Below are positions 1,420-11,656 of a stretch of 11,656 bases of DNA, in pieces. The notes under the pieces are model-generated. The model did no database searches. It was not told the origin of the DNA and worked only from the letters and a program-made list of their open reading frames with translations. The stretch spans positions 1-11,656 of the forward strand of contig JAJRTK010000036.1 of NCBI GenBank assembly GCA_024278345.1, given 5' to 3'. This DNA comes from a bacterium (GTDB lineage Bacteria; CSSED10-310; JAJRTK01). Within the stretch, counting starts at the first letter, position 1. Each line of letters begins with the position of its first letter. A program made the position numbers and the translations under genes.

Positions 1420-4419
1420 TCATCCGGTAACAGCAGGTTTTTTCTCCCGCCCTGCCAGGAACGCCCTTCTCCGTTTGGCATCGGCGATCTCTCGGAGCCA
1501 TCCATCGCCATCGACCCAGTGTGCAAGGAACTCCTCATAGGCTTCACGAGCCGCCGATAAACGGCCACGCGCCTCGTTGCTCCGGCCAAGTAAGTAATGG
1601 GCGAAGACGCGAACGGGATCACTGGGATCGCCGCGGGCATCGATCCATTCCTTTAGGATGCGGGCAGCCCATTCCGAGTCTCCCTGTTTCAGAGCAAGCT
1701 CCACCACCGGGAAGAAGACGTCGCTGGTTCTTGTTTTCGTCAATCGTTCCGCCCAATTCTTGGCCTCCCGAAATCGCCCTTCTTCCGTCGCTTGAATGAG
1801 CTTCCAATAGTCCAGGAAGAAAGGTGCTATCTGGTTGGCATCGCCTTCCAGGAGGCGCCGCGCTTCCGCCTCAAAGCGTTTCGCAGCCTCCTCCCGCCCC
1901 GCCTCCCTGGCCCAGATGGCCAAACTGAAGACGGGGAAAAAATTGCGGCGCACAACGCCATCGGCCACCAGATTTTCGCCTATCTCCCAAGCTTTGGAGG
2001 GATAGCCAATTCGGACCAGAGTGTGACCAAGCCAGAGACGCATTCGCTCCCCTTGCTCGGGATCCCCCAGGGCAACAGAGGTTTCGGCGGCTTCCTCAAT
2101 GACCCCGAAGGCGGCATCAAAGCGACCCACGGCAACAAATCCCCGGGCCCGTTCGTAAGCGGCGGACAAGATCGCAGGGGATGTCCCCAACTGTTCCAGT
2201 CGAGTAATCCATGCGTTGGATTCGTCCATCCTTCCCTGGGCACGGGAAAGTTGGGCCATGGAAACGAGAACCAGCAGATCGTCCGGTTTCTTTTCCAACA
2301 CTGTTTCCAGTTCCACGGCAGCTTCGTGGAGCTGCCCCGTCCGCTTGAGCAGCCGAGCATAGTGAAGGTGCATTCGGACGTCATCGGGGCGGAGCCGCAC
2401 ATAATCCGACAGGACTTCGATGGCATCACCCTTGCGGCCCGCTCCAAACAGCCCCTCGGCGTAGCTCTTCACCGAGGCGGCGGAAAGCGGATCTTCGGAA
2501 TAAATTCGGCGCAGTCCCGACAGGCCCTCTTCGAGTTTTTCGTCGTCACCCAGAAGACGTCCCACTTCAGCCCGTATGAGGCAGGCTACGCGCCCTATTT
2601 CCGGATCTCGCTGGTACTTGGCCTCCAGTTTTTGCACTGAGTTGAGGAGGCCATCGATACTCCCCTTGGCCATCTCTTCGTAGAGTCGGACAAGTCCTCT
2701 GTGCTTTTGGCTTAGCCCAGAGAGCCTCGTGGACAACAATCGTAGCTGCTCATCGGCTCGCTCGGTCCTTCCTTCGCTACGGTATGACTCAAAGAGCCGC
2801 AATCTTGCCAGCGGAAAACCTGGGTCGATCTCCACGGCTGTTTCAAAAAAGGGAATTGCCCGATCAGTCTCCAAACGGTTGAATTCTCGCATGCCTTGCG
2901 CAAAAGCTGAAGCCGCCGGCTCTAGCTTCGTGAACCGAACTGGCTCATCCCTTCGCGAGTTTTCGGCACCCAGTTTCTCACCCAGAGCGGTTCGAAGCTT
3001 AGCGCTCAATTCGAAAACATCTGCCGCGGTTTCCTTCAACGAAGCTAATAAGGTGCCATCTTTCACGTCCTCCAACTGCGCCACAACCAGAAGCCGATTC
3101 TCCGTCTTGAAGAGAGCCCCGGAGAAGGTAAAATCCGCGCTGGCCTTTCTGGCCACTGTCGCTCTGACCTCCGGATCGAGGCCCCGGCCCAGCTCGCCTC
3201 CAGCCCGACTGACAAGATCGGCGATCCTCTGTGACCCGATGATCCGAAACTCCTCCACATCCGAGAATTCCGCTATGAGGAGTTCCGGCAAGCCCGAGAC
3301 GACCCAATCCAGGCCGGGGTCACCGGTGAGATTGCGAAAGCCAAAGATCGCTAATGCGGGGGCCTTGGAGACAGCCTGGCTTCCGCTTCTGCTCCCGGCG
3401 ATCCAGATCCCCGTTCCGGCAGCGAGGAGCAGTAAAAAAAGAAGATAGGGAAGGAAGCTCCTTCCCCACCGTCGATGGGTCTTCCCGCCAGGAAAAACTG
3501 GCGGGTGTGCCAGATCCCATAGGCCGGCACGGGGGCTGGTGACCAATCTGTCGCTTTGGAGCCTGAGAGCTCGGAGTTCCGTCCGGATTTGCCTCGCCGA
3601 CGGATAACGATCTTCGGGGGATTTTTCCAAGCACCGAAACACGATCTTTTCAAACTGTGGAGGCACAATTTGGCCTCCCGCCTCAAATGGCTTGGGCTCG
3701 TCCCGGAGAATCGCGGCAATGGCTGTAAAATCCGAATCACCTGCAAAAGGCAGCTCACCGGAAACAAATTCGTAGAGCACCACCCCGAAGGAAAACAAAT
3801 CACTGCGAAAATCGAGATCAGCAGAGGAAATCTGCTCCGGAGACATGTAGGCCAGGGTTCCCATCACCTGTTTCGCACCGGTCAAGGAGGAACGGGTAAC
3901 CTCGTCCTCCAAAGCCAAGTGGCCAGAAGAAACCGCCGCGGGAAAGATCGGCTTGGCAAGGCCGAAGTCCAAGATCTTCGGGCGGCCGTCCGGGCTGCTG
4001 ATGATGATATTGCCCGGCTTGATATCCCGGTGGAGAATACCCTTGTCGTGGGCTGCCGCCAGGCCGTCGGCAATCCCCTCCGCCAACCTGAGTAGCCTTT
4101 CCATGGGAACAGGCCCTCTGGAGATCAAACTCCGCAGGCTCTCGCCCTCCACATACTCCATGACCAGGTAGTGGAGTCCAGCCTCTTCGCCATACTCGTA
4201 AATGTGAGCCACATTGGGGTGGGATAGCTGGGCCGCGGCGCGGGCTTCCTGCTGGAATCGGAGCACGGCTTCCGGCGAACCCAAAGCGGCCTCGGACAGT
4301 ATCTTGACAGCGACCTGACGGCCCAACCGGGGATCGGCGGCAAGAAATACCTTTCCCATCCCGCCTTGGCCAAGAAGCCGCAGAACTTCATAAGGTCCTA
4401 TTCGTCCTGGATCGTCCAT
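1420..4419 (-). CDS. Transmembrane Ser/Thr protein kinase with TolB-like and TPR domains
   Basis: A 999-aa protein, taking ATG 4417-4419 ([11 protein letters not shown]) as start because the kinase domain begins about 10 residues later, as in PknB-type enzymes. A weak GAGAG lies upstream. The frame continues to ATG 4530, but those 37 extra residues have no family signature. Kinase domain about 10-280: glycine loop GQGGMG 17-22, Lys39 (VAVK), Glu58, HRDIKPGN with catalytic Asp132, DFG at 151-153, and YMSPEQ at 191-196, so it should be active. One membrane helix lies at about 321-341. The remainder is predicted extracytoplasmic: a TolB-N-like region (about 356-470, FGFRNLTGD...VVSGLPELL) and then degenerate TPR-like helical repeats to the end (about 500-965; clearest near 655-715 and 940-965). 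This kinase/TM/TolB-like/TPR order is a receptor layout common in Acidobacteriota. The ligand is unknown. It is the first gene of an operon with the EEP lipoprotein, and divergent to the crotonase gene. Confidence 0.92.
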
Positions 4420-4585
4420 GGTCTCTCGATTTTTTCGCGCAATCAAGGTCGTCTCTCGTCGCGGCCGCGGTCCGGTTGACATCTGCAAGGGACTCAGCTC
4501 AATAGAACATATCCCACGGCCAGATGCCATTCTGCTTTTCGTGTGTGTGGGAGAGAAGGGCTATTTGTTGAACCAAGGAGTCGGC
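4420..4585. promoter_or_regulatory. Divergent intergenic region between kinase and crotonase genes
   Basis: These 166 bases separate the two divergent start codons and must carry both promoters. On the plus strand a perfect TTGACA box lies at 4476-4481. The hexamer 17 nt downstream, TCAATA (4499-4504), is a poor -10 match, so the plus-strand promoter is only a candidate. I could not pick a convincing minus-strand promoter. Open frames run through this stretch on both strands as N-terminal extensions of the flanking genes, but neither extension is needed by its protein family. Confidence 0.4.
4575..4580 (+). promoter_or_regulatory. Ribosome binding site AAGGAG of the crotonase gene
   Basis: Strong AAGGAG placed 5 nt before ATG 4586. 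It decides this start against the in-frame GTG/ATG codons upstream, where the open frame reaches back to 4418. Confidence 0.85.
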
Positions 4586-5395
4586 ATGGAGCAGGTTTCA
4601 CCGCCAAGGCACTATCATACTATTCTGTTCCGAAAAGAAGGAACTATCGGGGTTTTGACCTTAGATCGCCCCGAAAAACTCAACGCCATGTCCCCGGAGA
4701 TGGGCCGGGAGGTCGCGGAGTTGGTGACCCATCTGGAACGGGACTCCTCTTTGCGGATCCTTGTGATCACTGGAGCCGGAAAGGCATTTTCCGCCGGTGG
4801 TGACTTGGATCTCATCCTGGAAAACTCCCAGCGCCGGCCCGATGAAAATACCGCCGATATGCTCCGTTTCTACCGGGCATTTCTTGGAATCCGACAACTG
4901 CCTGTCCCCCTCATCGCGGCGATTAACGGAGCCGCTGTCGGCGCTGGCCTCTGCCTGGCCCTGGCATGCGACTTGCGGATTTGCTCCCAGTCCGCACAAC
5001 TGGGTCTGCCCTTTGTCAACCTGAATCTTCATCCTGGCATGGGTGCCGAGTCCTTTCTCATGGGCCTTGTGGGACCCGCCTGCACGGCGGAGCTGCTCTT
5101 GACGGGCCGAACCTTCTTGGGGGAAGAAGCCAAACGGATGGGACTGGTGAACCGAGCCGTGGCACCGGCAGACGTTCTCTCTTGTGCCTTGGAGCTTGGG
5201 CGGGAGATTGCTAGCAAGGGTCCCCTTGCCGTCCAACAAATCGTGCAGACCCTCCGGGCCCTCACCGACTCCCGGCTTTCCGAACTCCTGAATAGGGAAG
5301 CATCCGCCCAAGCCCTGGGCTTTGCAACAAAGGATGTGCTGGAGGGTGTCCGGGCCGTCCGGGAAAGGCGAGCGCCGCGATTTTGCGGGCATTAG
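4586..5395 (+). CDS. Crotonase-superfamily (enoyl-CoA hydratase/isomerase-like) protein with atypical active site
   Basis: A 269-aa protein, the usual length for a single-domain crotonase. Visible are the first oxyanion-hole region FSAGGDL (68-74), the second at VGAGLCLALACDLR (118-131), the LHPGMG loop (148-153), TAELLLTGR (167-175) and the C-terminal alanine/arginine-rich helices. CoA-thioester binding and oxyanion stabilisation are therefore expected, probably in fatty-acid or aromatic acyl-CoA metabolism in the cytoplasm. Against rat mitochondrial crotonase, the position of Glu144 (GGGCE) is Cys123 and that of Glu164 (QPE) is Phe143. Both catalytic glutamates are therefore absent, and a classical syn-hydration is unlikely. 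The LHPGMG signature recalls a subfamily with Phe at the second site. The reaction is not assigned. It is transcribed alone and divergently from the kinase operon; no partner beta-oxidation gene is present. Confidence 0.88.
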   Translation: MEQVSPPRHYHTILFRKEGTIGVLTLDRPEKLNAMSPEMGREVAELVTHLERDSSLRILVITGAGKAFSAGGDLDLILENSQRRPDENTADMLRFYRAFLGIRQLPVPLIAAINGAAVGAGLCLALACDLRICSQSAQLGLPFVNLNLHPGMGAESFLMGLVGPACTAELLLTGRTFLGEEAKRMGLVNRAVAPADVLSCALELGREIASKGPLAVQQIVQTLRALTDSRLSELLNREASAQALGFATKDVLEGVRAVRERRAPRFCGH

Positions 5396-5494: not shown

Positions 5495-5818
5495 CCTTAT
5501 GCTAAAGGGAACCGTTTCTGTCGGCGGTTAGTTCCTTTCCTGGGGAACGTGGAGGCTCTTTAGCCAGGATTCTCGCTATATAAGGGATCGTGGAGGACAA
5601 ATTGGCGTGCGTGCTCCCCAAGGAGAAGGCGGGATGGATACCGGAGCGCGGGGTGGGTTTCAAGCCCACCAGCAAACATAGAGAACCTCCTACCGAGGAC
5701 ACCGGTGGCAACCACGGATGGCCCGCTGCGGGGATTATGGATGGGTGCTCCGGATCAAGGGGGATAGGTGCTCAACTCCGGGTGGTCAGTTGGCTCGATT
5801 CAACCTGGCGAGAAGGAT

Positions 5819-5840
5819 ATCGGGGGGGGGCGCTCCCGAT
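5819..5840 (+). other. Stem-loop containing a nine-G tract in the 5' leader
   Basis: ATCGGG (5819-5824) pairs with CCCGAT (5835-5840); a G.U and a G-C pair can extend the stem. Positions 5822-5830 are nine consecutive Gs. It lies about 30 bases before the ribosome binding site of the REC-GGDEF-EAL gene, so it would be in the mRNA leader. G-runs of this length can slip in replication or adopt other folds. Confidence 0.45.
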
Positions 5841-5869
5841 TTCCAGTTCCCTTTACGCCCCACATTGCC

Positions 5870-5876
5870 GAGGAAG
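5870..5876 (+). promoter_or_regulatory. Ribosome binding site GAGGAAG for the GTG start at 5880
   Basis: GAGGAAG ends 3 nt before GTG 5880 (AGGA is 5 nt away). It favours this GTG over the upstream in-frame ATG at 5718, since the receiver domain begins only five residues after the GTG. Confidence 0.75.
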
Positions 5877-5879
5877 ACT

Positions 5880-7628
5880 GTGAACGACAAGACGATTCTC
5901 GTCATCGATGACTCTCGTCTCGTGCTGGAAATGATTGCCACGCTCCTGGAGGACGAAGGATTCAACGTGCTTCAGGCTAGCAACAGCCCGGCGGGGGTGG
6001 AGCTTGCCAGGCGGCATTGTCCCGACCTTGTCATCTGCGACATTATGATGCCGGTCATGGACGGATATGGCGTGTTGGCAACGCTTCGGAGCGACCCTGT
6101 GACGGCGGCGATTCCCTTCATTTTTCTCACTGCGAAGGCGTCTCGCGCGGAGATCCGCCAAGGTATGAACGTCGGGGCTGACGACTACCTGACCAAGCCA
6201 TTCGAGTTTCAAGAGCTGCTCGATGCTGTCTACGCCAGATTTCAAAGGCACAAGACTGTTTCCGACCACTTTGGTGCCGAGTTGGCGCGGGCGGAAAAAG
6301 AACTCGAGTACCTCATGCAGCACGACCATCTTACAGGGCTTCCCAACCGGAGCCGCTTGGAGGTGCAGCTCGAGTTAGCGCTGCGGATCACTCCGACAAA
6401 CCTTCTGGTGGGCATTCTAGGTATCGATCTTGATCGATTCCAGAACATCAACGACGCTCTTGGACTGGCAACGGGCGACCAAGTCCTCAAGTCGATTGCC
6501 AAGCGTTTGCGTGGGTTTGCCCGGGGGGATGACCGCGTATTCCACATTGCCGGAAACGAGTTCACGGTTCTTATTGCTGGCGCCGCGAACAGGAGTGCCT
6601 TTGAGGAAGCGGCGCAACAGGTGCTGGACTGTATCGCGGAGCCCATCCCGTGTGAGACCCGGGAAATCCATATCACGGCCAGCGTCGGCATAGGTATCTA
6701 CACTGTGGAAGTGGAAGAGGCGGGAGCTCTGCTCCGGCACGCCGAGATGGCCATGACGGAGGTAAAACAACGGGGTGGCAACAATTATTTGTTCTACCGC
6801 CCGGATTTCCAGGCCAGGGCAGTAGACCGCCTGGCCCTGGAAAGCAGCTTGTATCGGGCGATCCGGGAGAACGAGCTCTCTCTTGCCTACCAGCCGCAGG
6901 TAGCGGCGCAAACGGGCCGAATCATCGGCATGGAAGCTCTACTCCGCTGGACCAGTGGCGAGCATGGCTCCGTGCCGCCCCTCCATTTCATTCCATTGGC
7001 CGAGTCCAACGGCCTCATCGTCCCCATCGGTCGCTGGGTTTTGCGGCAAGCCTGCCTCTTCCGTCTTTCCTTGGTCGATGTTTTGCGCGACACGGATCGG
7101 GTTGCCGTGAACATTTCAGGACGGCAGCTCAAGGAACCCGATTTCGTCAGGGATCTATTCCGGGTTTTAGAAGAAACGGGGCTGCCGCCAGAAGCTCTGG
7201 AACTGGAGCTCACGGAGAGTATCCTGATGAAGAACGAGCTGCGCACCATCGGAGCTTTGGAGGAGTGCAGAGCCGCCGGAATCTCCATCGCCATCGACGA
7301 CTTCGGAACGGGCTATTCCTCCCTTTCCTACCTCAAGACATTCCCCCTGGACAGAATCAAGATCGACAAGTCGTTTATCGATGACGTGACGACTGACGCC
7401 AATGACGCGGCCATCGCATCGGCAATCATCAGCATAGCCCGAGGCCTCGAAATCGAATCCGTGGCTGAGGGAGTGGAACACGAGGCCCAGCTCAATAAGC
7501 TCAAGAAGCTCGGGTGCAACATCATCCAGGGCTACTATTTCAGCAGGCCATTGCAGCCCCATGACTTCATGGAGTTCCTGGATCGGCAGTTGCCTTGCCC
7601 GCCCCGGGAAGGATCTTTCCGACCGTAG
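5880..7628 (+). CDS. Response regulator REC-GGDEF(degenerate)-EAL, probable c-di-GMP phosphodiesterase
   Basis: A 582-aa cytoplasmic protein starting at GTG 5880. REC domain about 4-122: acidic pair Asp10-Asp11, phosphoacceptor Asp54 (CDIMMP), Thr84 and Lys106 (TKPF), all intact, so it should accept phosphate from a histidine kinase not encoded here. A helical linker (about 125-147) leads to a GGDEF domain about 148-308 that opens with DHLTGLPNR. Its signature is AGNEF (224-228), while RGDD (215-218) keeps the inhibitory I-site RxxD with correct 5-residue spacing. EAL domain about 316-575: EALLRW 352-357, Asn411 (VNIS), Glu446 (LTES), Asp473-Asp474 (DDFGTG), Lys494 (KIDKSF), AEGVE 529-533 and QG 550-551, all intact. 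I infer hydrolysis of c-di-GMP to pGpG under phosphorylation control, with GGDEF as a regulatory domain and not a cyclase. It is monocistronic and convergent with the transglycosylase gene 57 bp away. Confidence 0.93.
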   Translation: MNDKTILVIDDSRLVLEMIATLLEDEGFNVLQASNSPAGVELARRHCPDLVICDIMMPVMDGYGVLATLRSDPVTAAIPFIFLTAKASRAEIRQGMNVGADDYLTKPFEFQELLDAVYARFQRHKTVSDHFGAELARAEKELEYLMQHDHLTGLPNRSRLEVQLELALRITPTNLLVGILGIDLDRFQNINDALGLATGDQVLKSIAKRLRGFARGDDRVFHIAGNEFTVLIAGAANRSAFEEAAQQVLDCIAEPIPCETREIHITASVGIGIYTVEVEEAGALLRHAEMAMTEVKQRGGNNYLFYRPDFQARAVDRLALESSLYRAIRENELSLAYQPQVAAQTGRIIGMEALLRWTSGEHGSVPPLHFIPLAESNGLIVPIGRWVLRQACLFRLSLVDVLRDTDRVAVNISGRQLKEPDFVRDLFRVLEETGLPPEALELELTESILMKNELRTIGALEECRAAGISIAIDDFGTGYSSLSYLKTFPLDRIKIDKSFIDDVTTDANDAAIASAIISIARGLEIESVAEGVEHEAQLNKLKKLGCNIIQGYYFSRPLQPHDFMEFLDRQLPCPPREGSFRP

Positions 7629-7685: not shown

Positions 7686-8972
7686 TCATGCCCCGGCATT
7701 GTCACCCGAGGCCGCCGCACACTCCATGACGGCCTTGAAATGAAGATAGAGCTGGGTGGAGCGCGGGCCACTGCCCCTGCTCATCAATTCGGGCAGGATC
7801 TGCTGGGAAAAGAGGTCCAGCCATTCCCGTGGCCGAACTGTCTCCAGCCCCTGGAGGTTGCCGCTGGAGAGCCGGCCAAGAATGCGGAGGACCGTTCCAG
7901 GACCCTGGTTGTAGGCCAGCACAGCCAGACCCCGACGAACCGGGCGGGGCAGCTTCAAACGGCGCTCACCAACCTTCCAAGGATAGCGGACGTAATATCG
8001 GAACAACAAGGCCGAATAGGCGACGTTGGTCTCGGGATTGAAGGTGTAGCCTGTTCTTTGGCCGTAGGTCTCTTCGGCGGCAATTCGGTAGGCTTTCACG
8101 ACCTTCCCATAGCGCGGGGCAATGCTCTTTCCCTGGCGAAGGCGCTGGCATAGCTGACGGAGCTTCACCCTGTCCGCAAGCAGATCCGGGGCATCATGAG
8201 ACAGAAGAAGAAAAACTCGCCGAAGCAACTGTTCGCTGACACCAGAGCGCTCCGCCCCATTGATTCGTTCGATTCTTGGGATGCGAAAATCGGGGAAGAT
8301 GGCGTGGAAGAGTATGCGGTTGCCCGGGTCGGAGTAGAGGTCACGCAGTTTTTCTTCATAGCGAAAGAGCCGGTCTGACCGGGCATCAGACCTCTCGAGG
8401 AGCTGTTCGACCTGGTGTATCCCGATCTTTGTGAGCTGCCCGACACCCTCGGCCCCTGTGGGGCTCACAGCCTGTGACCGGAGCCTGGACTCCTGGAGGA
8501 ACAGGCAGAGCAGCAGCTCAGGAGGAAGCTCGAAAGCCTCAGCCGCCACGAGGACCGCCGCGTAAGTCCGGACGGCATCTGAGCCAGAGAGAATGGTCTT
8601 CCCCGACGAACCGGCCTCGGAGAGGAGGCCCAGTAGATCGTCGTGCCAAAGGAGATAGCGGTGGAGAGGGATGCCCTTTTTCGCGGCGGGAGCATGGGCA
8701 CGCTCACTCATTCTTCCGTTCTTTCCCAGGACCGCTTCGAGGTAGAGCATGGTGCGGAAAACGGGTGCTGCATCTTCAAAGCTTCGCAGTACGGGCGCCT
8801 CTGACAGCAAGCGCCGGTAGCTTTCATCGACAGATTCCACGACACTGGGAAGATTCGCCAGCGGGCCAAGGGCAGCTTGAACAGGCCCGGCGAACAAGCA
8901 TCCAAGGACGAAGAGAAGCACCCAACTTCGGCGAACACTGACAGCTCGCCGGCCTATGAAGAGAGAAAACAT
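7686..8972 (-). CDS. Secreted lytic transglycosylase-like (SLT domain) protein
   Basis: A 428-aa protein taking ATG 8970-8972 as start, with a partial GGTGA 7 nt upstream; a TTG at 8999 would add nine residues. An Arg-rich start, hydrophobic core and Ala-X-Ala-like VQA (about 31-33) form a Sec signal peptide. A Cys in the core (VLGC) makes a lipoprotein less likely but possible. Residues about 34-140 are helical and unassigned. The SLT signature follows: LFLQES with catalytic Glu161, then AVSPTGAEGVGQLT (168-181), later NVAYSALLFRYY (316-327) and AYNQGPG (353-359). These are the motifs by which soluble-lytic-transglycosylase relatives cleave the MurNAc-GlcNAc bond of peptidoglycan to a 1,6-anhydro product, in the periplasm. 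The distance between the Glu motif and the NVAYS motif, about 150 residues, is roughly 100 longer than usual. Its 3' end faces that of the c-di-GMP regulator. Confidence 0.85.
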   Translation of the reverse strand: MFSLFIGRRAVSVRRSWVLLFVLGCLFAGPVQAALGPLANLPSVVESVDESYRRLLSEAPVLRSFEDAAPVFRTMLYLEAVLGKNGRMSERAHAPAAKKGIPLHRYLLWHDDLLGLLSEAGSSGKTILSGSDAVRTYAAVLVAAEAFELPPELLLCLFLQESRLRSQAVSPTGAEGVGQLTKIGIHQVEQLLERSDARSDRLFRYEEKLRDLYSDPGNRILFHAIFPDFRIPRIERINGAERSGVSEQLLRRVFLLLSHDAPDLLADRVKLRQLCQRLRQGKSIAPRYGKVVKAYRIAAEETYGQRTGYTFNPETNVAYSALLFRYYVRYPWKVGERRLKLPRPVRRGLAVLAYNQGPGTVLRILGRLSSGNLQGLETVRPREWLDLFSQQILPELMSRGSGPRSTQLYLHFKAVMECAAASGDNAGA

Positions 8973-9260
8973 TGTCAAATCACCAAACCACACTTTCAAG
9001 AATGACTATTTCCCGTTCGGACGTCCATGCGCCCAGGGATCTAACGGGAGCTTTTCACCACGATTTTGCCACGGCACGCAGGCCATGGAGCCCGTTCGGC
9101 TGCGATCCTTGGTGGAAACTCCGGGTGGAACAGTCCTCCAGTGGAAGAACCAATAAGTCCTGGCTCCGAGAAAGCGCGGTGAGGGCTGGGAATCGCTGAG
9201 AGCTGAGAAGAGAGATGGTCACGGCAGACGAGAGCGGGTGGAAGGCGCCGGATGGTTCTT

Positions 9261-9323: not shown

Positions 9324-9330
9324 AAGGAAG
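9324..9330 (+). promoter_or_regulatory. Ribosome binding site AAGGAAG for ATG 9333
   Basis: AAGGAAG lies just before ATG 9333 (AAGGA is 4 nt away), the same motif as used by the EEP gene. The next in-frame ATG at 9351 has no such site. Confidence 0.65.
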
Positions 9331-9332
9331 GT

Positions 9333-11656
9333 ATGTGTCAATCCGATACCATGCTCGGTGCCAGCCCGCGTCACCGCGGGCGATGGACACGCTGGAGCCT
9401 CCTGTACCGGAACCTGTTACTCTTCGGCGCCCTGGTGGCGGGAAATACGCTCTATCTTTCCATGACCCGCTTGATTGGCGACATGGGGGCTGCTGGCGCT
9501 GACATGGGGATCTCCGCCTTCTACCAGGTCATGCTCTTGGCTCACACGGCTCTGGGAAGCGTGGCGACACTCTTGGCCCTTTTCTTTGCCGTTGCGCATC
9601 TTCCCAAGGGCTGGCTTCTGCGCCGCAAGGTGGTTCTGGCAAGTGGCTTCTGCCTGGTGGGTCTGGCATCGGCGCTGGCTGGGACAGGATTCTTCATCGT
9701 GAAGGAGGCGCAACGCACGGACCATCGCTGGATATTCTGGGCCCACGTTGGGGCAGCTTTGCTCTTGCCAGCCAGTTTCCTCCTTCACCGGCTGCGCTCG
9801 GTGGTTCCCATTTCGAAGGGTATATTGGTTCGCGGTTTGCTTGTCTTGGCGGTAGTCTTGACGGCGACGATTAGTCTAGATTTCGGAATCAGGGCGCTTC
9901 GGCCCGGCGATTTCTTCGTGTCGGACGGCCACGTTCCTCCTGAAAGCCCTTTTTTTCCGTCGCCCGCTACAACGGCCAAGGGAGGGCTCGTGTCCAGCGA
10001 GATCATCACTCTGGGTGAACCGCATGAGGAGGTTAAGCTTCGGCAAGACCTGGATTCCATCGGCTTTGGGTTTCGGGAGAAGATCGGAGCCGCCCTTTGC
10101 GAGAGATGCCACCCGGACACCGTGGAGCAGTGGGCGATATCAGCCCATCGGTTCGCCTCCTTCAACAACCCCTTCTATGAAGCCACGGTGAAGCAGCTGC
10201 GAAAGAGGGCCGGAGAGTCGGTCTCCCAGTGGTGCGCGGGCTGCCACGATCCCGCCCTGCTCTTTTCCGGAAAGATGGCGAAGCCAGTGGATAGGGAAAC
10301 CGCGGAAGCCCAAGCGGGCCTTACCTGTATGGCGTGTCACGCCATCGACAAGATCCACGACCGGACGGGCAACGGCAACTACAATTTGGCCACCGATACC
10401 CCGAGCCCCTACCTCTTTGCCGACGCTGGGAACGGGATTCGCCAGCTTCTCCACGATAGCCTTCTCAAGTCCCGCCCGGCGGCGCACAAGCAGAGGCTGC
10501 TCAAGCCTTTTTTTCGGGAACCCGAGTATTGTGCCACCTGCCACAAAGTGAGTCTGGACTTCCCCATCAACCGGTACCGTTGGCTCCGAGGGCAGAATGA
10601 ATACGACAACTGGCACGACAGCGGCGTGAGCCGAAACGCGGCTCGAACCTTCTACCTTCCCCAATCACGCCAGATTTGCCAGGATTGCCACATGCCTCTG
10701 GAGCCCGCGCCTCTGGGCGATCTGTCGGCCAAGGGAGGTCAGATCCGGTCCCACCGCTTTTTGGCGGTGAACACTGCATTGCCCTTCATTCGGAACGACG
10801 GCTCCAGCATCCGCCGGATCGAGGAATTCCTCCAAGGCCGCGTGAGCCTCAAGGTTTTTGCCATGCGCCCCTATGGAGAGAGCGTCCCGGCAACTCTTGC
10901 TCTGGGGGAGGAGTCGGCGGTTCTCGAGCCTGGCCGGGAGATCGTCTTCGACGTTGTTGTCCGGAACCGGGGAGTTGGCCACACCTTTCCGGGCGGCACG
11001 ATCGACTCGAATCAGGCCTGGATTGAGTTCCAGGTTCTGGACGGCGACGGCCAGATCCTTGCGAAGAGCGGAACGGTGGATCCATCAGGCGATCTCGACC
11101 CGGCGGCCCACGTCTACGGAGCGTTATTCGTGGACAAGAAAGGCGAACCCGTTCTTCATCGGAACTCCCAGGATTTTCACGCGCCGGTCTATCTCCACGT
11201 CATCGCGCCAGGAACTGCCGACATCGCCAGCTACCGTGTCAGGATTCCGGAGCTGGGAGCCAAGCAAATACGGCTTGTTGCCCGGCTGCTCTGGCGTAAG
11301 TTCCACCGGCCCTTCACGCGCTTTGCCTTCGCCAACAGCCCGGCTTTTGCCGGACTGAGGGGGCAAGAGCCCCCGATGCTTCCGGTGACGGAAATCGCAC
11401 GCCACGAGGTCACTCTGGAGGTTTCCGCGGAAAAGCTGGAATCCGTGGGGCCGCTTTCTCGAGATCGCCGCGGCAATTCCGGCAATCTTGTTCCCGGCAC
11501 CGCTTCCGCCACTGGCCAAGCTCGGAATTGGACCGGATTCAACGACTACGGAATCGGGCTTCTCCTTCGTGGCGAGTTCGCTGGGGCGGACAGGGCTTTC
11601 GAGCTGGTATCGCGGCTGGCGCCGGATCGGGCTGACGGTTTCCGAAACCGCGCGCG
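9333..11656 (+). CDS. Membrane-anchored pentaheme cytochrome c with TPR, 3' end outside window
   Basis: The frame is open from ATG 9333 to the window edge: 774 codons, no stop. Five hydrophobic helices are seen at about 25-43, 62-88, 99-122, 134-152 and 164-182. Basic loops at 11-20, 91-99 and 152-162 place the N-terminus in the cytoplasm and everything after 185 in the periplasm. Helices 2 and 4 carry histidines at both ends (His71/His89 and His138/His152), suggestive of b-haem ligands. Five c-haem motifs follow: CERCH 256-260, CAGCH 301-305, CMACH 332-336, CATCH 400-404 and CQDCH 449-453. Residues about 500-700 look like beta-strands and include VGHTFPGGTID (548-558), a motif known next to haem domains of multiheme cytochromes. 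A TPR-like helix pair begins near 735. I infer quinol-linked electron transfer to periplasmic haems. The family resembles cytochrome c554-type proteins but I do not recognise a named member. It has its own promoter; downstream partners are unseen. Confidence 0.88.
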   Translation, partial: MCQSDTMLGASPRHRGRWTRWSLLYRNLLLFGALVAGNTLYLSMTRLIGDMGAAGADMGISAFYQVMLLAHTALGSVATLLALFFAVAHLPKGWLLRRKVVLASGFCLVGLASALAGTGFFIVKEAQRTDHRWIFWAHVGAALLLPASFLLHRLRSVVPISKGILVRGLLVLAVVLTATISLDFGIRALRPGDFFVSDGHVPPESPFFPSPATTAKGGLVSSEIITLGEPHEEVKLRQDLDSIGFGFREKIGAALCERCHPDTVEQWAISAHRFASFNNPFYEATVKQLRKRAGESVSQWCAGCHDPALLFSGKMAKPVDRETAEAQAGLTCMACHAIDKIHDRTGNGNYNLATDTPSPYLFADAGNGIRQLLHDSLLKSRPAAHKQRLLKPFFREPEYCATCHKVSLDFPINRYRWLRGQNEYDNWHDSGVSRNAARTFYLPQSRQICQDCHMPLEPAPLGDLSAKGGQIRSHRFLAVNTALPFIRNDGSSIRRIEEFLQGRVSLKVFAMRPYGESVPATLALGEESAVLEPGREIVFDVVVRNRGVGHTFPGGTIDSNQAWIEFQVLDGDGQILAKSGTVDPSGDLDPAAHVYGALFVDKKGEPVLHRNSQDFHAPVYLHVIAPGTADIASYRVRIPELGAKQIRLVARLLWRKFHRPFTRFAFANSPAFAGLRGQEPPMLPVTEIARHEVTLEVSAEKLESVGPLSRDRRGNSGNLVPGTASATGQARNWTGFNDYGIGLLLRGEFAGADRAFELVSRLAPDRADGFRNRA

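Follow-up and report, generated by a model that had tools for sequence, protein, structure and literature searches.

The gene at positions 9333-11656 (forward strand) encodes what is, on balance, best read as an inner-membrane single-chain b-c cytochrome that links quinones at the periplasmic face with a periplasmic or surface partner, and the fusion probably connects the quinone pool of the membrane with partner proteins beyond the inner membrane. This model is built on the sequence, its conservation, the fold of the c part, topology signals and gene pairing, all of which were observed, and from them we infer the haem loading, the quinone link and the contact with a partner. The parts of this protein are known and their combination, which is widespread, appears to be undescribed.

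Gene and window

The window, that is, the whole stretch of 11,656 nucleotides analysed here, is an entire contig (G000:C502) of a 6.06 Mb draft genome in 550 contigs. The frame of the fusion cytochrome is open to the end of the window and, as this is also the end of the contig, the 3' end of the gene is missing. From the ATG at 9333, 774 residues lie inside the window, and there is also an in-frame ATG upstream at 9252. When the missing 3' end was sought in the same genome, contig C192 was found to start near an FG-GAP gene, with no TPR continuation and no overlap, and a TPR search of the genome gave generic TPR matches only. The features listed in the first-pass annotation (His71, His89, His138 and His152, five CXXCH motifs, GHTFPGG and the start of a TPR) are all present in the 9333-11656 frame, and they are laid out as follows.

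9324-9331, forward: AAGGAAGG, likely ribosome-binding site 5' of the ATG at 9333 (from sequence)
9333-11656, forward: coding sequence of the fusion cytochrome, 3' incomplete, 774 aa in the window (relatives 850-1080 aa)
9366-9797, forward: four-helix haem-b module, DUF4405-like (AF2, hhalign to unfused DUF4405-like proteins, structural matches)
9543-9545, forward: His71 codon, candidate haem-b ligand on the periplasmic side (83/84 relatives)
9597-9599, forward: His89 codon, candidate haem-b ligand on the cytoplasmic side, His71+18 (conserved in the four-His group only)
9744-9746, forward: His138 codon, partner of His71 (84/84 relatives)
9786-9788, forward: His152 codon, partner of His89, His138+14 (from the alignment, as for His89)
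9816-9899, forward: fifth helix (162-189), membrane anchor of the pentahaem part (AF2; unfused cytochromes start with a single hydrophobic stretch)
9999-11417, forward: periplasmic pentahaem cytochrome c552-like part including a beta-sandwich, residues 223-695 (match to 5ZE8)
10098-10112, forward: CERCH, haem-c motif 1 (this and the next four from sequence and alignment)
10233-10247, forward: CAGCH, haem-c motif 2
10326-10340, forward: CMACH, haem-c motif 3
10530-10544, forward: CATCH, haem-c motif 4
10677-10691, forward: CQDCH, haem-c motif 5
10977-10997, forward: GHTFPGG in the beta-sandwich, with His550 a possible distal haem ligand (invariant, 84/84; aligned to HAMPTG of 5ZE8)
11529-11654, forward: first part of the C-terminal TPR region, which the contig end truncates (AF2 helices 726-773; TPR in full-length relatives)

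The other genes of the window look ordinary and encode a Ser/Thr kinase with TPR (1420-4530, reverse), a GGDEF-EAL response regulator (5718-7628, forward), a lytic transglycosylase (7686-8999, reverse), an endonuclease/exonuclease/phosphatase protein (307-1404, reverse) and an enoyl-CoA hydratase (4418-5395, forward). No tRNA or RNA family was found in the window. The source genome is rich in further multihaem cytochromes (L143, L144, L145 and L142), three of them with eight CXXCH motifs and one a 1020-residue frame with five.

Layout of the protein

Two AF2 models of the protein (pLDDT 86 and 85, pTM 0.80 and 0.85) place five helices at the N-terminus, at residues 12-50, 62-96, 99-125, 129-155 and 162-189. 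Helix 2 carries His71 and His89, which are 18 residues apart, and helix 4 carries His138 and His152, which are 14 apart. Hence the 14-residue spacing pointed out in the first-pass annotation is that of helix 4 and not of helix 2, and of the five-helix membrane module that it described there are indeed five helices, but the module itself consists of four and the fifth is an anchor helix. The CXXCH motifs begin at residues 256, 301, 332, 400 and 449, GHTFPGG spans 549-555, and residues from about 733 to 774 are the start of a TPR region that is carried whole by full-length relatives.

When the PDB was searched with a profile of the full alignment the result was swamped by TPR proteins, and the search was redone with the c part only. 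Residues 223-695 match the penta-haem cytochrome c552 of Thermochromatium tepidum (PDB 5ZE8) with a Z of 19.6 over 341 of 385 residues, a Foldseek E of 3e-12 and a profile E of 4e-11, and in the profile alignment the His of GHTFPGG is paired with the His of HAMPTG in 5ZE8. The GHTFPGG region is therefore the beta-sandwich of a known pentahaem fold and not the separate extra domain for which it had been taken. The five predicted c-haems, on the other hand, are supported by this match over the whole domain and by the Cys and His residues of all five CXXCH motifs, which are conserved in 84/84 sequences. The His residues outside the motifs at 272, 385, 474 and 550 are also invariant among the 84 aligned sequences, and His593 is present in 75/84; these residues are candidates for the distal ligands of the five haems.

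The membrane module and its separate counterparts

In a structure search with the membrane module the best matches were cytochrome b6, FdnI, HyaC, NOX5 and designed haem bundles such as the di-haem 4D2, with Z of 9-11. The top match (Z 11.1) aligned over the whole four-helix span, which is only suggestive since about 13 is the safe level for helical bundles. The arrangement looked for was that of cytochrome b6 and bc1 cytochrome b, whose ligand His residues are on helices B and D, the second and fourth. A PDB sequence search with the transmembrane profile alone gave no convincing relative.

Unfused relatives of the c part, which were obtained by tblastn against plasmids, were found in Shinella and Nitratiruptor beside a gene for a small membrane protein. 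The gene order in Shinella HZN7 is imelysin, DUF4405 protein, multihaem cytochrome and FTR1 permease, and in Nitratiruptor it is ferritin, imelysin, small membrane protein, multihaem cytochrome and FTR1. Of the two small membrane proteins (P0002 and P0004), one scores above the curated cut-off of PF14358 and the other just under it, and both have exactly H-x3-G-x13-H and H-x13-H, while the separate cytochromes (P0003 and P0005) have one hydrophobic stretch at their start. These separate halves indicate that in the protein of the window a four-helix DUF4405-like protein has been joined to the cytochrome, in front of its anchor helix. In Aeromonas caviae (L127:3393-6359, in a record that is labelled plasmid yet is 4.9 Mb) there is an apparent fusion of another kind, in which N-terminal YVTN beta-propeller-like repeats, recognised by eye, are joined to a multihaem cytochrome just upstream of an FTR1-like gene.

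The relation to DUF4405 was also seen in profile comparisons. When the subgroup of the window was compared by hhalign with two paralogues and two unfused DUF4405-like proteins the probability was 91 with the His residues aligned, and when it was compared with the unfused proteins only, the score was 38 and the probability 69, with the helix-2 His pair and the Gly aligned. In the controls for this score the maximum was 17.5 over 60 column shuffles and 16.9 with a reversed alignment. A single unfused DUF4405 sequence against alignment A3 gave a probability of 8%, and a narrower group-A profile against small alignments gave 69-91%. The paralogues L011 and L004 match PF14358 below the cut-off (0.0018 and 0.017), and since the window protein is likewise below the curated Pfam threshold we call it DUF4405-like and not a member. 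Binding of haem b in vitro has been demonstrated for a DUF4405 protein and for the DUF4405-like ferrosome cytochrome FezC (PMC11334425).

Conservation of the His residues

A scan of contigs from one genome per species gave at least 542 confirmed relatives, of which the best 80 were taken; these come from Gemmatimonadota, Planctomycetota, Neomarinimicrobiota, Calditrichota, Latescibacterota, Acidobacteriota, Poribacteria and others, and most have 850-1080 residues with five c-haem motifs. Conservation was counted in an alignment of 84 sequences. His71 is present in 83 of them, the remaining row being a gap, His138 is present in all 84 and Gly75 is nearly invariant, while His89 is found in 30/84 and His152 in 34/84. 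The sequences fall into a four-His group, in which the spacings of +18 and +14 are exact in 24/24 (the window, L013-L031, L033, L074 and the TPR-less paralogues L004 and L011), and the remaining 60, in which neither His89 nor His152 is conserved and single His residues are sporadic. The conservation in homologues that the first-pass annotation had looked to for its four His residues thus holds for His71 and His138 throughout and for all four in near relatives, but not for His89 and His152 in the other large subgroup. One of the paralogues, that on contig G000:C249 of the same genome (L011 1261-3348; L123 5657-9686), has 695 residues, no TPR and all four His, and an FG-GAP/UnbV gene lies directly downstream of it.

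When a tree was built from only the c part, a branch with an SH-aLRT of 99 separated the four-His sequences from the rest, and rooting on the paralogues implies one loss of the inner His pair. Because this loss is a single event, the joint loss of His89 and His152 is suggestive and not statistically proven, and an independent-pairs test had too few events to inform.

The charges of the loops indicate an N-in/C-out topology, which places His71 and His138 near the c-haems at the periplasmic side and His89 and His152 at the cytoplasmic side. Of each helix the half toward the periplasm is better conserved than the half toward the cytoplasm, and strongly so in the two-His group, from which the inner His pair has been lost (Mann-Whitney p 1e-8); Asn38, Tyr41, Tyr64, Gly75 and Gly119 are among the residues conserved there. 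The conserved face of helix 2, computed without the His residues, is within 8 degrees of the His face, and on helix 4 the conservation points 52-92 degrees away from the His residues.

The paired His residues, their conservation, the folds of haem-b bundles and the relation to DUF4405 support a b-type membrane module with paired His residues on helices 2 and 4, the haem loading being predicted from sequence. This much of the proposed di-haem b module stands, but as the inner pair is absent from a large subgroup two b-haems are not obligatory.

The FG-GAP/UnbV partner gene

An FG-GAP/UnbV_ASPIC (CRTAC1-like) family is found in the neighbourhood of 60/81 loci, and at 52/81 loci the gene is on the same strand within 600 nt of the cytochrome gene. 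Where it lies downstream, its start overlaps the stop of the cytochrome gene by 4 nt, as ATGA or GTGA, in 17 of 39 cases, the gene ends being those of a mechanical ORF caller. Many of these partners begin with a signal peptide or a lipobox, as judged by eye, and no CXXCH motif was found in those inspected. The window's own FG-GAP neighbour would lie beyond the contig end, by extrapolation from the relatives. FG-GAP/UnbV genes of the source genome (L118 and L122, on contigs C395 and C20) are near genes that by eye resemble carboxypeptidase-regulatory/TonB-type outer-membrane receptors, and such nearby genes may hint at the role of these beta-propellers.

Proposed function and alternatives

In the proposed mechanism the four N-terminal helices would form a DUF4405-like cytochrome b, in which a periplasmic-side haem b would be held by His71 and His138 and, in the subgroup of the window, His89 and His152 would hold a second haem nearer the cytoplasm. 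The periplasmic pentahaem c552-type cytochrome would be anchored by helix 5, and a quinone site on the periplasmic face of the membrane could exchange electrons, by way of the periplasmic-side haem b and then the five c-haems, with a partner in the periplasm or at the cell surface. At the partner end the exported FG-GAP/UnbV beta-propeller encoded alongside is most likely involved, with the TPR tail as a possible docking arm, and the two may make up the docking or substrate side. As most relatives keep only the periplasmic-side His pair, electron transfer across the membrane from a cytoplasmic donor is presumably not the shared function.

No quinone-site motif was identified in the fusion cytochrome, and this counts against a b-c conduit, as do the Pfam score of the window protein below the DUF4405 threshold, the modest Z of the membrane fold, the conservation of helix 4, which lies off its His face, a relative in Granulicella without the b module and the position of the window's own partner gene beyond the contig. 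This Granulicella tundricola homologue (L124:7734-10076) has the pentahaem and TPR parts, and its neighbours are CRTAC1 genes, a cytochrome c, glycoside hydrolases and a TonB receptor. Were the membrane helices a mere anchor or assembly domain, with His residues that are structural or bind another metal, the existence of such a relative and the dispensability of the inner His pair in one subgroup would be explained, but His71 and His138 are invariant in all relatives that have the module and related DUF4405 proteins bind haem b, which makes this reading very improbable. It is more conceivable, though still unlikely, that the protein is an iron-handling device, a ferric reductase or a ferroxidase that feeds an iron permease, as imelysin and FTR1 genes flank the unfused pairs of DUF4405 and pentahaem genes in Shinella and Nitratiruptor and FezC belongs to ferrosomes (PMC11334425). 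However, no FTR1 or imelysin was recognised among the neighbours that recur around the fused family, most of these clusters being judged from sequence only, and the partner that does recur is FG-GAP/UnbV.

The direction of electron flow bears on a further possibility, in which the same conduit works inward and an exported oxidation with the FG-GAP/UnbV partner delivers electrons to the quinone pool by way of the c-haems and haem b. This fits the close pairing with a gene for an exported beta-propeller, and relatives of CbcL and MtoC have been reported for both directions (PMC6295460), but the inspected partners have no CXXCH and there is no known substrate, and we regard the inward direction as a plausible but lesser prospect. 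For the b-c conduit the outward respiratory direction, that is, quinol oxidation, is slightly preferred over the inward one.

If this is right, a membrane electron conduit is present in hundreds of genomes of abundant soil and marine phyla under names like 'tetratricopeptide repeat protein', and the fused and unfused pair assigns a redox partner to DUF4405 cytochromes. We would go only tentatively as far as an undescribed and widespread class of respiratory quinone-linked b-c fusions with a dedicated FG-GAP/UnbV partner and a large Acidobacteriota/Poribacteria branch with the periplasmic-side b-haem only. If that were true, the pathway would need only quinone chemistry at the periplasmic face, and the second haem, with transmembrane charge transfer, would be an optional energy-coupling feature; the natural split into four-His and two-His groups offers a direct test of the role of the second b-haem.

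Comparison with known systems

The pentahaem part shares with 5ZE8 the fold including the beta-sandwich and the corresponding HAMPTG motif, but the 435-residue chain of 5ZE8 lacks both the four-helix b module and the TPR tail. With DUF4405 (PF14358) the membrane module shares four His residues on two helices and a Gly four residues after the first His, and the spacings of 18 and 14 in the unfused copies beside pentahaem genes are identical to those in the window, whereas DUF4405 proteins are separate proteins and the published DUF4405 model has six transmembrane helices as against a four-helix module here. The Shinella and Nitratiruptor clusters (L125:5174-7308 and L126:5435-7341) have the same two halves as adjacent separate genes, but these are unfused, in an iron-uptake setting, and have no TPR and no FG-GAP partner. 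In the open-licence literature on such an architecture we found only papers on CbcL-type proteins and on DUF4405, and no fusion of DUF4405, pentahaem and TPR parts is described in them. The statement in the first-pass annotation that a single-chain quinol-to-multihaem conduit is uncharacterised is thus not correct in kind, as CbcL is such a protein, with six TM helices, two b-haems and nine periplasmic c-haems (PMC9129911), but the domain order in the window was found in no description. CbcL, MtrH and MtoC of Geobacter, Rhodoferax and Dechloromonas, homologues of which occur in 15 phyla (PMC6295460), likewise combine in one chain a membrane domain with two b-haems and a multihaem c domain in the periplasm, and take part in quinone-linked electron exchange (PMC9129911, PMC6295460), a link that the window protein would share. 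As they are described, their c-haems are N-terminal and followed by a C-terminal b domain of mostly six TM helices, with three conserved His reported and no TPR mentioned, whereas the window protein, unlike CbcL, has its b module at the N-terminus, with four helices and an anchor, and five c-haems instead of nine.
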